A stretch of DNA of 38,958 bases from a virus: positions 1 to 38,958 of IMG/VR virus record IMGVR_UViG_3300033146_001483. One strand, 5' to 3'. Positions 9,687 to 35,023 of this stretch are shown one piece after another. The position numbers and the translations under genes were made by a program. Under the pieces are notes generated by a model. It was not told where the DNA came from and made no database searches. It saw nothing but the letters and a program-made list of their open reading frames with translations. Each line of letters starts with the position of its first letter. Position 1 is the first letter of the stretch.

Positions 9687-9710
9687 TATTTAGTGGAGGA
9701 TTATAAGAAA

Positions 9711-10610
9711 ATGGAAAATAAACAAAAGGAAGCCATTGCTTCTTTGATGAAGTCTGGTGATAAACAAGCTCTTGCAGAACTTATTGTAGAGTTTGCTGAC
9801 CCTACTCACATTGCAACCGATTTTGTGGGGTTGCTATTAAACACTCGCTCATTAAAACCTGGTGATGCGTTAGTAAAAAAGGTACGTAAGGGTGTAAAAG
9901 TTCGTACTCTAGTTCCAGGTGCAATGCACTTAGCTAGTGAGATTACAGTGTCTGATCGCATTAACTACATTCTTGACGGTGCTGACGTAAAAGTTACTGC
10001 TAACCAATGGGAATTGGAATCTGGAGAACTTGGTGAAGTGTCTAAAATTAAAACTGAAATGCTTCTCAGTTTGAAAGACTATTACTTGAATAAAGTATTT
10101 ACGGCACTTTCGACTGTTTGGACTGCTGTAAACACTCCTGATAACTTTACTGCTATTGGTGGTGCTGTTACTGCAACAGCTCTTGAAGATGCTATTAATC
10201 AGATCAATCAAACAACTGGTGGTGTAAAAGCAGTCATTGGTACTCGGGCAGCATTAACTCCGATTACTAAATTTGGTGGGTTCTGGACTGATGGTACTAA
10301 CGTAGCAAGTGTTCCTGAGAACATTAGTGAGATTATGCAAAATGGCTGGCTTGGTAAATATTATGGAGCTCCTATTTTGGCTATTGATCAGCAATATGAT
10401 AACCCTGAGGATTATAATGCCCTTATTCCTAGTAACAAGATTATTGTTATTGGTGAAAATGTTGGTGATTTTATCACCTATGGTGACGTTAAAACAAAAG
10501 AATGGTCTGACATGCGTCCGACTCCTCCTCAATGGTATCTTGAAATATATCAACAATTTGGTCTTATTATTGATAGAGCTATGGGAATTTATGTAATTGA
10601 AGTTGCATAG
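9711..10610 (+). CDS. Major capsid protein (HK97-like)
   Basis: 299 aa from the ATG at 9711; the GTG at 9693 would put the GGAGGA at 9695-9700 inside the gene, so I prefer 9711. The short helical N-terminus (KQKEAIASLMKSGDKQALAELI) is followed by a phage capsid-like core: LVPGAMHLASEI, ADVKVTANQWELESGELGEVSK, then two halves of alpha/beta sequence ending PQWYLEIYQQFGLIID. It sits after the protease and decoration genes and right before a strong terminator, as expected for the most abundant virion protein. Cleavage by the upstream protease is likely but the site is not evident. Confidence 0.85.
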   Translation: MENKQKEAIASLMKSGDKQALAELIVEFADPTHIATDFVGLLLNTRSLKPGDALVKKVRKGVKVRTLVPGAMHLASEITVSDRINYILDGADVKVTANQWELESGELGEVSKIKTEMLLSLKDYYLNKVFTALSTVWTAVNTPDNFTAIGGAVTATALEDAINQINQTTGGVKAVIGTRAALTPITKFGGFWTDGTNVASVPENISEIMQNGWLGKYYGAPILAIDQQYDNPEDYNALIPSNKIIVIGENVGDFITYGDVKTKEWSDMRPTPPQWYLEIYQQFGLIIDRAMGIYVIEVA

Positions 10611-32667: not shown

Positions 32668-32696
32668 TTGACAAATTTGAAAATATGTGGTAAAAT
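32668..32696 (+). promoter_or_regulatory. Sigma-70-type promoter 2 of the tRNA island
   Basis: TTGACA (32668-32673), 17-base spacer, TAAAAT (32691-32696; five of six). Transcription would begin near 32703, just before the first tRNA at 32720. Together with promoter 1 this gives a strong tandem promoter. Confidence 0.88.
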
Positions 32697-32719: not shown

Positions 32720-32792
32720 AGCGGAGTGACGCAGTGGTTAGCGTGTCAGCCTCATAAGCTGAAAGTCGGGAGTTCAAATCTCTCCTCCGCTA
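32720..32792 (+). tRNA. tRNA-Met(CAT)
   Basis: Full cloverleaf: acceptor AGCGGAG/CTCCGCT, D stem ACGC/GCGT, anticodon stem TCAGC/GCTGA with loop CTCATAA (anticodon 32753-32755), T arm GGGAG TTCAAAT CTCTC, discriminator A, no encoded CCA. The first pair is A-U and the three G-C pairs of initiators are absent, so it is an elongator type, or a lysidine-modified tRNA-Ile2. A separate tRNA-Ile(TAT) in the array favours Met. Confidence 0.93.
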
Positions 32793-32819
32793 CTTAGAAG
32801 GAATAGAAAGTAAGTATGC

Positions 32820-32896
32820 AGGCATGTAGCTCAGTTGGTCAGAGCATTCCTCTGATACGGGAAAGGTCAATGGTTCGAGTCCATTTATGCCTACCA
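32820..32896 (+). tRNA. tRNA-Ile(GAT)
   Basis: Acceptor AGGCATG/TATGCCT, D stem GCTC/GAGC, anticodon stem TTCCT/GGGAA with loop CTGATAC (anticodon 32854-32856), T arm AATGG TTCGAGT CCATT, discriminator A, then an encoded CCA (32894-32896). It is the only tRNA in the array that encodes CCA, which hints that it was acquired separately. Confidence 0.93.
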
Positions 32897-32912
32897 TCAG
32901 CACAGTGAAGTT

Positions 32913-32985
32913 AGTCCTTTAGTGAAACTGGTTATCACGCAGGTCTTTGAAATCTGAATTCGTAGTTCAAATCTACGAGGGACTG
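32913..32985 (+). tRNA. tRNA-Gln(TTG)
   Basis: Acceptor AGTCCTT/AGGGACT with one G-U pair, D stem GTGA/TCAC, anticodon stem CAGGT/ATCTG with loop CTTTGAA (anticodon 32947-32949), T arm CGTAG TTCAAAT CTACG. The discriminator G is normal for Gln. Confidence 0.94.
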
Positions 32986-32988
32986 CAA

Positions 32989-33063
32989 CAGGGTGTGGGA
33001 AAGTCTGGTTAATCCGCTTGCCTTGGACGCAAGAGAACGGTGGTTCAAATCCACTCACCCTGA
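32989..33063 (+). tRNA. tRNA-Pro(TGG)
   Basis: Acceptor CAGGGTG/CACCCTG, D stem of three pairs GGA/TCC, anticodon stem CTTGC/GCAAG with loop CTTGGAC (anticodon 33024-33026), T arm GGTGG TTCAAAT CCACT, discriminator A. It starts only three bases after the tRNA-Gln. Confidence 0.92.
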
Positions 33064-33067
33064 CTAT

Positions 33068-33153
33068 GGAGGTGTAGATGTTTATGGAGGACGCCCTGAC
33101 TGTAAATCAGGTTACCAAAAGGTACAGCGTAAGTTCGATTCCTGTCACTTTCA
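33068..33153 (+). tRNA. tRNA-Tyr(GTA)
   Basis: Acceptor GGAGGTG/CACTTTC (G-U pairs), anticodon stem CCTGA/TCAGG with loop CTGTAAA (anticodon 33102-33104), and a long variable arm (TTACC...GGTA) as required for Tyr. The T stem is imperfect, with one A-C mismatch (GTAAG TTCGATT CCTGT). Discriminator A, 86 nt. Confidence 0.88.
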
Positions 33154-33157
33154 CTAA

Positions 33158-33231
33158 GCACTCATAACTCAACTGGTTAGAGTAGCGGTCTTATATACCG
33201 TTAGTTGAAGGTTCGAGTCCTTCTGAGTGTA
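33158..33231 (+). tRNA. tRNA-Ile(TAT)
   Basis: Acceptor GCACTCA/TGAGTGT, D stem ACTC/GAGT, anticodon stem GCGGT/ACCGT with loop CTTATAT (anticodon 33192-33194), T arm GAAGG TTCGAGT CCTTC, discriminator A. The UAU anticodon reads AUA directly; most bacteria instead use a lysidine-modified CAU tRNA for AUA. Confidence 0.9.
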
Positions 33232-33243
33232 TCTCATTACTAA

Positions 33244-33316
33244 GCACCAATAGCTCAATGGTTAGAGCAACTGTCTCTTAAACAGTAGGTTGGAGGTTCA
33301 AGTCCTCTTTGGTGCA
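33244..33316 (+). tRNA. tRNA-Lys(CTT)
   Basis: Acceptor GCACCAA/TTGGTGC, D stem GCTC/GAGC, anticodon stem ACTGT/ACAGT with loop CTCTTAA (anticodon 33317-region start; bases 33277-33279), T arm GGAGG TTCAAGT CCTCT, discriminator A. It reads AAG and is one of two Lys tRNAs in the island. Confidence 0.93.
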
Positions 33317-33317
33317 C

Positions 33318-33458
33318 TATAATTAATATGTCACAGTGCAGTCGTATTGAAGACGTTCAATTATGTTGGGATTCAGAGTTACAAAATAATGAGGGCACAT
33401 CCTAAGCTAGGTTACAGCGAAAAGAAGTAACACAACCTCTGTGTTGTATTAATTATAA
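33318..33458 (+). ncRNA. Unassigned structured RNA element between tRNA-Lys and tmRNA
   Basis: The segment is closed by an 11-bp perfect inverted repeat (33318-33328 with 33448-33458), which could extend with one mismatch and G-U pairs to about 19 pairs. Inside are hairpins ATTGAA-GACG-TTCAAT (33346-33361), CCTA/TAGG (33401-33411), GTTAC/GTAAC (33411-33432) and AACACA/TGTGTT (near 33430-33446). There is no cloverleaf, no convincing reading frame and no T run. It lies on the same predicted transcript as the tRNAs and may be an independent RNA or a processing spacer. Confidence 0.5.
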
Positions 33459-33464
33459 AACAAG

Positions 33465-33740
33465 GGCTCGATCGGCTTCGACGGGCAATGGCAGCTAAAC
33501 ATTCTGGCACTTTAAAATAACTGCAAAAAATATAATTGTAAGTTTCGTAAGTAAAGTAAAAAGTTTTGTTGATACTCTAATTAACATTCCCGTTGGTGGA
33601 TACCAATCTCCTAGTTTTGCCGCTATATAAGCTTTAAATAGTGGACGTATGTCAGAACCAACTGACTGTAATAAAATGGAACGCCAGTAATATGTGACCC
33701 TAAGTTGTTCGGACGTGGGTTCAATTCCCACCGAGTCCAC
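33465..33740 (+). ncRNA. ssrA: Phage-encoded transfer-messenger RNA (tmRNA)
   Basis: The 5' end GGGCTCGATCGGCTTCGACGGG has the conserved tmRNA start. The 3' end GGACGTGGG TTCAATT CCCAC CGAGTCC A gives a T arm and an acceptor that pairs with GGGCTCG. The pair G3-U70 is the alanyl-tRNA synthetase identity element. TTTAAAATAACTGCA resembles the Bacillus resume region, placing the resume codon GCA at 33524. The frame from there runs 35 codons, beginning AKNIIVSFV and ending PSFAAI, to TAA at 33629-33631. A GTCAG/CTGAC hairpin follows the stop. At 276 nt it is shorter than most bacterial tmRNAs; CCA is not encoded. It should rescue stalled ribosomes. Confidence 0.92.
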
Positions 33741-33753
33741 TCAGCCTCCTCTG

Positions 33754-33821
33754 TGTAATTGGTGTTGTAAGGGCGCCAATGTAACACAAAGACAGGTACA
33801 TGACTACACTCATCATGTAGA
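33754..33821 (+). ncRNA. Hairpin segment between tmRNA and tRNA-Asn
   Basis: A stable bulged hairpin lies at 33754-33788 (GTGT-A-ATTGGTGT with GCGCCAAT-GTA-ACAC). A second hairpin CTACA-CTCATCA-TGTAG follows at 33805-33821. Neither is a tRNA and no reading frame is convincing. It may be a processing element, or a decayed RNA gene. Confidence 0.4.
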
Positions 33822-33857
33822 AGAAAAGTACTTGGATGGAGATGATAACTTCAGCAA

Positions 33858-33930
33858 TGTTATGTAGCTCAATTGGCAGAGCGCTTGACTGTTAATCAAG
33901 TGGTTGGTGGTTCGAGTCCACCCATAACAG
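33858..33930 (+). tRNA. tRNA-Asn(GTT)
   Basis: Acceptor TGTTATG/CATAACA, D stem GCTC/GAGC, anticodon stem CTTGA/TCAAG with loop CTGTTAA (anticodon 33891-33893), T arm GGTGG TTCGAGT CCACC, discriminator G as usual for Asn. Six T residues follow at 33932-33937, which may end part of the transcript. Confidence 0.94.
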
Positions 33931-33977
33931 CTTTTTTAGCATATATAACACATAAATCTAGCTAGTAAGAGGAGAGT

Positions 33978-34094
33978 ATGGAGAAAATAATAGAGATAGC
34001 TAGAAATGATATAGGAAGATATGGGCATGAATACTCTTTCGTCTCATTATTAAAAAATTTGAGGATGGGCTTTGTAGTTGAAAGTAGAAAGTAA
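33978..34094 (+). CDS. Small protein (38 aa) inside the tRNA array
   Basis: MEKIIEIARNDIGRYGHEYS at the start, ending GFVVESRK, preceded by AAGAGGAGAGT at a good distance. It fits exactly between tRNA-Asn and tRNA-Lys(TTT). The reading is charged and helical with no membrane part. I do not recognise it. The good ribosome site is the main reason to believe it. Confidence 0.55.
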   Translation: MEKIIEIARNDIGRYGHEYSFVSLLKNLRMGFVVESRK

Positions 34095-34100
34095 AGATAA

Positions 34101-34174
34101 GCACTTGTAACTCAATTGGATAGAGTAACTGGCTTTTAACCAGTAAGTTGTGGGTTCGAGTCCCATCAAGTGCA
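34101..34174 (+). tRNA. tRNA-Lys(TTT)
   Basis: Acceptor GCACTTG/CAAGTGC, D stem ACTC/GAGT, anticodon stem ACTGG/CCAGT with loop CTTTTAA (anticodon 34135-34137), T arm GTGGG TTCGAGT CCCAT, discriminator A. It reads AAA, a very frequent codon here. Confidence 0.95.
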
Positions 34175-34175
34175 C

Positions 34176-34352
34176 TTATACCAATAGCGGTGTGAAAGCT
34201 GAAGCTCTGAAATGGGGCTAGACCCCTTAGTAGGAGTAGAGACACACTTAAAAACAGTAATGGAGTCAGGTCTTCCTCCACATTAAATTTAAAGAGTATC
34301 AGCGCAGTTGTGCGGTAGCAGAGTGGAAGTAGCGTCCCACCTATTGGTATAA
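34176..34352 (+). ncRNA. Unassigned structured RNA, 177 nt, closed by a 12-bp inverted repeat
   Basis: TTATACCAATAG (34176-34187) pairs perfectly with CTATTGGTATAA (34341-34352). Inside, GTGTG (34190-34194) pairs with CACAC (34243-34247), enclosing CTCT/AGAG (34205-34208 with 34238-34241) and GGGG-CTAGA-CCCC (34214-34226). TGGAG/CTCCA (34261-34265 with 34276-34280) and CGCA-GTTG-TGCG (34303-34314) make further hairpins. There is no cloverleaf and no open frame of note. An alternative long rod using CTCTG/CAGAG is possible. The size is like 6S RNA, but I have no motif to assign it. It begins two bases after tRNA-Lys and runs up to the switch-like repeats before tRNA-Thr. Confidence 0.55.
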
Positions 34353-34354
34353 AT

Positions 34355-34405
34355 AGTCAATTGAAGATATAGTTAGTGATTAGATCTATTGACTGCGATC
34401 ACTAA
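34355..34405 (+). repeat. Interleaved inverted repeats (switch or pseudoknot) before tRNA-Thr
   Basis: AGTCAAT (34355-34361) is complementary to ATTGACT (34388-34394), and TTAGTGAT (34373-34380) to ATCACTAA (34398-34405). Their order A-B-A'-B' means the two helices cannot both form as simple nested hairpins. They are either alternative structures or, if loops allow, a pseudoknot. The element ends two bases before tRNA-Thr. Confidence 0.6.
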
Positions 34406-34407
34406 AT

Positions 34408-34481
34408 GCTCCCATAGCTCAGTTAGTAGAGCGTTCGTTTTGTAAGCGAAAGGTCGTCAGTGCAAATCTTGACTGGGAGCT
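34408..34481 (+). tRNA. tRNA-Thr(TGT)
   Basis: Acceptor GCTCCCA/TGGGAGC, D stem GCTC/GAGC, anticodon stem TTCGT/GCGAA with loop TTTGTAA (anticodon 34441-34443). The T arm is odd: GTCAG with TGCAAAT and CTTGAC needs one bulged base in the 3' strand, and the loop starts TG in place of TT. Discriminator T. It may be functional but weakened. Confidence 0.85.
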
Positions 34482-34492
34482 CTGAGAACTAT

Positions 34493-34530
34493 TAGTTAAG
34501 AAGAAGTGTAACTATTTTTGTTTGTTTTTA
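34493..34530 (+). terminator. Possible terminator after tRNA-Thr
   Basis: TAGTTA (34493-34498) pairs with TAACTA (34509-34514), followed by TTTTTGTTTGTTTTT. The stem is short and AT-rich, so strength is doubtful. It would end the main RNA-island transcript. Confidence 0.45.
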
Positions 34531-34561
34531 TAAGTGAATAAAATTAATAAAGGAGGTTGGT

Positions 34562-34702
34562 GTGATTAATATACTGGGAAGGTATGTGGGAGTTGGCGAT
34601 GCTGTGTTTTTTTTGTCTCTTTTAATTGGAGTTAGTATAATAGCTATTATCTGGCTATTGCGAATTGGAGTTCCGTGGAAAAACAAGGGTAAGAATGAAT
34701 AA
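34562..34702 (+). CDS. Small membrane protein (46 aa), GTG start
   Basis: GTG at 34562 preceded by AAAGGAGG, a near-perfect ribosome site. One transmembrane helix (AVFFLSLLIGVSIIAIIWLL) and a basic C-terminus (WKNKGKNE), so the C-terminus is probably cytoplasmic. It is not recognised. It lies between tRNA-Thr and tRNA-His and overlaps the next short frame by 8 bases. Confidence 0.6.
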   Translation: MINILGRYVGVGDAVFFLSLLIGVSIIAIIWLLRIGVPWKNKGKNE

Positions 34703-34763
34703 ATTACTTGGTAGAGAATTCCTATCTCTGCTAGTAATGATTTTAATATATGACTATGTTTAA
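34695..34763 (+). CDS. Very short hydrophobic ORF (22 aa)
   Basis: MNKLLGREFLSLLVMILIYDYV. It overlaps the previous stop and the next start, has only a weak ribosome site, and looks like one hydrophobic helix. It may exist mainly to couple translation between its neighbours, or be chance. Confidence 0.3.
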   Translation: MNKLLGREFLSLLVMILIYDYV

Positions 34764-34923
34764 TTTATTTTTAGTTTTATTTTTCTTATTTACTCCGTAT
34801 GGAAATACACAAATTAGTGTTAGCGAAGCTGGAATTGAAATAAGTAGCCATAAGATAAATATGGTGTCTGATGTTTATTCCAAGCACTTGATTGAAACAA
34901 ATATACAAGATAGTTTAAAATAG
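34756..34923 (+). CDS. Small protein with N-terminal hydrophobic segment (55 aa)
   Basis: MFNLFLVLFFLFTPYGNTQISV is a signal-peptide or membrane-anchor-like start, followed by a short polar domain (EAGIEISSHKINMVSDVYS, IETNIQDSLK). The ATG lies inside the end of the 22-codon frame and has no strong ribosome site of its own. It may be exported or held in the membrane. No family is recognised. Confidence 0.45.
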   Translation: MFNLFLVLFFLFTPYGNTQISVSEAGIEISSHKINMVSDVYSKHLIETNIQDSLK

Positions 34924-34930
34924 AGAACTT

Positions 34931-35002
34931 TAGGAGGTAGCTTAAGTGGCAAAGCTCCGCACTGTGACTGCGGCGTTGTGGTTTCAATTACCACCCTCCT
35001 GA
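34931..35002 (+). tRNA. tRNA-His(GTG)
   Basis: Acceptor TAGGAGG/CCTCCTG (first pair U-G), D stem GCTT/AAGC, anticodon stem CCGCA/TGCGG with loop CTGTGAC (anticodon 34964-34966), T arm GTGGT TTCAATT ACCAC, discriminator A at 35002. The extra G at position -1 opposite C73, used by histidyl-tRNA synthetase in most bacteria, is replaced by U opposite A. Charging by the host enzyme may be poor. Confidence 0.85.
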
Positions 35003-35023
35003 CTTTCTATTTAAGGAGTAGTT

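Follow-up and report, generated by a model that had tools for sequence, protein, structure and literature searches.

A complete tmRNA gene within a phage tRNA array

The locus raises the question of whether a phage that carries its own tRNA genes also encodes a working tmRNA and, if so, what its long tag would do to the proteins that receive it. The window (the whole stretch of DNA analyzed, a 38,958-bp IMG/VR virus record) codes, in order, for terminase, portal, head-protein-like, and tail and tape measure proteins, followed by a tRNA array and then MazG and ribonucleotide reductase. It contains one tmRNA, which matches the Rfam model RF00023 from end to end (33464-33742, + strand; 70.8 bits vs. 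a gathering score of 47, E 1e-25) and is independently called by ARAGORN as a one-piece tmRNA (33464-33740, +). Both methods thus agree with the original prediction, made from the bare sequence, of a phage-borne tmRNA, even if a score of 70.8 bits is modest for a full tmRNA and counts against its being a working one. The permuted (two-piece) model RF04321 yields only 15.6 bits vs. a required 47, and the gene retains the standard order of 5′ tRNA-like domain (TLD), tag, and 3′ TLD.

The mature part of this ssrA gene, without the CCA, spans 33464..33739 (+; RF00023, ARAGORN). Its 276 nt are those originally predicted for 33465-33740 in length, with the start shifted to 33464 and the end to the discriminator A73 at 33739. 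The CCA is absent from the gene (33740-33742 read CTC), as it is from most tRNA genes of the array. The opposite strand does hold the protein-like reading against which the prediction had cautioned (an 81-aa ORF at 33495-33740, minus strand). The array (32720..35003, +; ARAGORN, Rfam) comprises genes for tRNAs Met, Ile, Gln, Pro, Ile, and Lys, then the tmRNA, and then Asn, Lys, Thr, and His; a putative sigma-70-like promoter, recognized by consensus match only (TTGACA-17-TAAAAT, 11/12, with an extended TG), lies upstream of it at 32668..32696 (+). A further tRNA-like stretch (33068-33153) with an apparent anticodon GTA is Tyr-like with a long variable arm; it scores 27.1 bits with the Rfam tRNA model, slightly below the cut-off of 29, and is not called by ARAGORN.

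The TLD is intact. The 5′ strand of the acceptor stem, GGGCUCG (33464..33470, +), forms 7/7 pairs with CGAGUCC (33732-33738), which together with A73 makes up the 3′ strand (33732..33739, +), and the T arm, GUGGG-UUCAAUU-CCCAC (33715..33731, +; RF00023 alignment and pairing check), has all the pairs of its stem formed, such that the predicted acceptor pair and T arm both hold. The G3-U70 pair, the identity element for alanyl-tRNA synthetase (AlaRS), is kept; the D-loop-like segment UUCGACGGG is present, and there is no anticodon arm. Helix 2 joins the two halves of the RNA through 8 + 4 + 5 bp, i.e., CGGGCAAU/GUUGUUCG (helix 2a, 8 bp, 33482..33489, +, with 33704-33711), ACAU/AUGU, and an inner segment CUGGC/GCCAG (33504..33508, +, with 33683-33687).

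Resume codon and tag

The tag frame runs from GCA to TAA (33523..33630, +; ARAGORN, RF00023, translation) and encodes, in 35 codons, AKNIIVSFVSKVKSFVDTLINIPVGGYQSPSFAAI, exactly the 35 residues ending in PSFAAI that had been proposed, with -FAAI as the predicted non-LAA end. GCA had been correctly named as the resume codon, one base off at 33524; it occupies 33523-33525. Rfam aligns the consensus GCA of RF00023 to this codon, and an AUAA tetramer ends two bases before it (AAUAACU-GCA). ARAGORN chooses GUA 33538 (+; 30 codons), five codons downstream and likewise preceded by AUAA-UU. Since GCA and GUA share one frame, the tag has either 35 or 30 residues with an identical end; we prefer GCA, since tags normally open with Ala and the model alignment falls there. 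AUAG or AUAA is strongly preferred 5′ of the resume codon (PMC4236655), and in E. coli (..AAUAGUC-GCA) A86, four bases 5′ of it, fixes the frame (PMC2481249); the phage tmRNA has an A at this −4 position.

A compact RNA without pseudoknot 1

The inner segment of helix 2 stops at 33508 and GCA begins at 33523, leaving only 14 nt between them; pseudoknot 1 (PK1) is therefore absent. Its place is taken by an A/U-rich linker, ACUUUAAAAUAACU (33509..33522, +; sequence and RF00023 alignment), and its positions are deleted in the RF00023 alignment, which bears out the expectation of reduced pseudoknots. The frame accordingly starts at position 60 of the RNA, vs. 88-94 in most viral-contig tmRNAs compared. 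PK1 is typical of bacterial tmRNAs, yet not strictly needed for activity, with tagging still efficient in an E. coli tmRNA engineered to carry single-stranded RNA in its stead (PMC4236655). A 2005 survey found it missing in mitochondrial tmRNAs only, and pseudoknots 2-4 to vary among known tmRNAs (PMC1168896).

Downstream, a helix-5-like hairpin, CCGCUAU-AUAAGCUUUAA-AUAGUGG (33620..33644, +; 7 bp), holds the tag stop TAA (33628-33630) in its loop; the stability of this hairpin, taken alone, is no greater than that of shuffled sequences. A small hairpin, GUCAG-AACCAA-CUGAC (33651..33666, +), is likewise not above chance; it is possibly the remnant of a downstream pseudoknot, with CCA of its loop facing UGG at 33677-33679. 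The search for downstream H-type pseudoknots returned candidates at 33613-33644 and 33651-33679, neither exceeding shuffles, and the fold of the whole RNA reaches a z of only −1.5.

Relatives of the phage and their tRNA arrays

Terminase scans place the phage in a large family of uncultivated phages (50-64% identity), and the order tRNA array, MazG, ribonucleotide reductase of the window is conserved in the related phage G014. RF00023 gave no match above cut-off on 62 related viral contigs, mostly fragments, and three relatives of 93-94 kb each (G014, G021, and G037) have 14 to 23 tRNAs and no tmRNA. Weak RF00023 matches in G014, G021, and G025 were rejected, being of tRNA length or confined to the T arm, with ARAGORN calling only tRNAs there. 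Given that it is missing from the related contigs searched, the tmRNA gene would represent a sporadic gain or a frequent loss. The INPHARED DNA search returned only short matches at chance level, some to tRNAs, and no close phage match; protein scans with two neighboring proteins as queries found zero relatives. The upstream pattern TTCGACGG N15-45 AATAAYTGCAAA matched two viral contigs, neither with an Rfam or ARAGORN tmRNA. A genome-contig scan returned two metagenome bins with conflicting labels, and we accordingly do not name a host.

The relatives show several features of their own. A repeated 50-70-nt element occurs in the tRNA arrays of three related phages, with copies in L113 (1931-1991, 2849-2902, 6074-6127, and 7883-7934), L121 (three, − strand), and L136 (four, − strand). 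It has an 8-bp terminal stem with compensatory changes and a covariation score above that of all 500 shuffles, and its 5′ arm carries TACAGCAA without variation. A model derived from nine copies retrieves 11, none of them in the window. Two copies match the Dictyostelium Class I RNA (RF01414) with 33.6 and 32.8 bits, below the cut-off of 41.5. This element is possibly a new phage small RNA, whose similarity to Class I RNA may have arisen convergently. One tRNA array codes for a DUF2828/DUF7788 protein (L113:6172-7590) adjoining the element, and the TROVE (Ro60) model has zero matches in the records with this protein; the array of G014 further harbors a NUMOD4/HNH homing endonuclease-like gene (L113:3161-3679). 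The counterpart of the head-protein-like gene of the window (9693-10610) is split in G021 (L115:18181-19782) and G037 (L126:6068-7812) into pieces ~0.7-0.9 kb apart, which suggests an intron or insertion.

Proposed function of the phage tmRNA

We propose, with a probability of about 0.72, that the gene, complete and placed within the tRNA array by ARAGORN, specifies a functional phage tmRNA that works with the SmpB of the host in ribosome rescue and targets proteins for degradation. The tmRNA would be co-transcribed with the tRNA array, charged with alanine by host AlaRS, and delivered by host SmpB and EF-Tu to stalled ribosomes during infection; a search of the window and seven relatives turned up no SmpB, and the phage would hence rely on that of the host. 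Stalled ribosomes, e.g., on mRNAs cleaved by phage or host nucleases, would thereby be freed, and the appended tag of 30-35 residues would direct the protein to a host protease via its -SFAAI end. This reading is favored by the agreement of Rfam and ARAGORN, the fully paired TLD stems with G3-U70, the AUAA tetramer with A at −4, the stop in the helix-5-like loop, the degron-like tail that is rare in shuffles, and the efficient tagging by E. coli tmRNA with PK1 replaced. Weighing against it are the modest model score, pseudoknot candidates and a whole-RNA fold that hardly stand out, the failure to find a homologue or an SmpB gene, and the absence of the tmRNA from the relatives searched.

The alternative that fares best, although unlikely, is that the tmRNA works and that its long tag alters the fate of proteins, by handing them to another protease (Lon in the case of Mesoplasma), by slowing their decay, or by sparing them. 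The length of the tag and its non-LAA end speak for this, as do Mesoplasma florum, in which a different tag is paired with a different protease (PMC8138137), and the AAV-type ends that are weaker degrons in E. coli, though still working (PMC9097571). If true, such a re-purposed tag would let the phage rescue ribosomes while its own unfinished proteins are not lost. However, no homologue was found in which the extra 20-25 residues are conserved, and the tag end keeps Ala-Ala and hydrophobic residues. The redirecting or sparing tag of the original prediction is thus possible and unsupported by these data, with -FAAI still degron-like (hydrophobic, Ala-Ala near the end).

Slightly less probable again is a decaying tmRNA copy, in which the pseudoknots and the original stop were lost and the length of the frame is accidental. 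The absence of PK1, the weak downstream folds, and the lack of the gene in relatives would all fit, as would the 3.9% of 20,000 dinucleotide-preserving shuffles in which the frame stays open for at least 35 codons. Against it, the TLD, helix 2, and upstream tetramer are intact, and a degron-like tail at the stop is rare in the same shuffles: Ala-Ala falls within the last three residues in 0.09%, and such an end with four hydrophobic last residues occurs in only 0.015%, a figure that is indicative only, since the tail criteria were picked after the sequence was seen.

An improbable third reading is that of a decoy titrating SmpB or blocking the host tmRNA. The model for it is the TLD-only RNA of mycobacteriophage DS6A, with such a DS6A-like RNA inhibiting tmRNA in E. 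coli (PMC4131195, PMC11915505), and the pseudoknots of the phage tmRNA are indeed reduced, but a decoy would have no need of a full reading frame equipped with signals to resume and to stop. Capture of a host ssrA end at a prophage attachment site, suggested by the frequent integration of prophages at ssrA (PMC11915505) and by the roughly half of viral-contig T-arm matches that lack a complete ARAGORN tmRNA, is highly improbable, as the gene is complete and has phage tRNA genes on both flanks within the contig.

Comparison with known tmRNAs

The functional tmRNA that we favor shares with the standard one-piece tmRNAs of RF00023 the TLD with G3-U70, helix 2, the AUAA-NN-GCA signal, the stop in a helix-5-like loop, and a hydrophobic tag end containing Ala; it differs from them in its size (277 bp), the absence of PK1, and the lack of detectable downstream pseudoknots. 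Its tag of 30-35 residues contrasts with the most frequent length of 10 in the tmRNA database of 2025, which has 79 unique phage sequences and a new short extreme of 2 (PMC11915505). The original view that the tag is unusually long is upheld by a viral-contig sample skewed to host-like canonical tmRNAs, in which the ARAGORN tags of complete tmRNAs span 9 to 21 residues, and by the contig L105 (IMGVR_UViG_3300050508_000516), whose tag has 26. Longer tags are found in Mollicutes and diatom plastids, and the start of the phage tag may resemble that of cyanobacterial and plastid tags (ANNI..F).

L105, found by a pattern scan, has a 256-nt tmRNA whose 26-aa tag, AKNNVLSFSRPAARRAINDRPLAAAA, has a similar start; it differs in keeping PK1-like pairs in the Rfam alignment, in being GC-rich, and in its tag end, AAAA. 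Another contig, L106 (IMGVR_UViG_3300014911_000147; tmRNA 2547-2831), also misses PK1 in the Rfam alignment and has its resume codon ~60 nt in, but bears an ordinary 10-residue tag, ANNTTQRMAA, indicating that loss of PK1 need not go with a long tag.

Among phages, where tmRNA genes occur in ~2% of public genomes (PMC9004378), the closest parallels are the phage-carried genes of tag-bearing tmRNAs in the mycobacteriophage Bxz1 group, Wildcat, Bacillus phage G, and the Streptomyces BE phages; those of the Bxz1 type (cluster C1) and the BE phages lie beside many tRNA genes, as here. No INPHARED phage is a close DNA match to the phage described here. The tmRNA of methylophage Melnitz and pelagiphages is similarly sporadic, present in only part of the phage group (17/47 contigs of the Melnitz group), but is a permuted two-piece RNA, in contrast to the one-piece RNA described here (PMC9004378). 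Phage tmRNAs, long tags, and non-LAA tags are each known separately; their combination is new, as a variant rather than a new kind. As a compact natural tmRNA, apparently working without PK1 and with a tag ~3× the usual length, it is well suited to testing which tmRNA parts are necessary, and whether phage tags give proteins the same fate as host tags.
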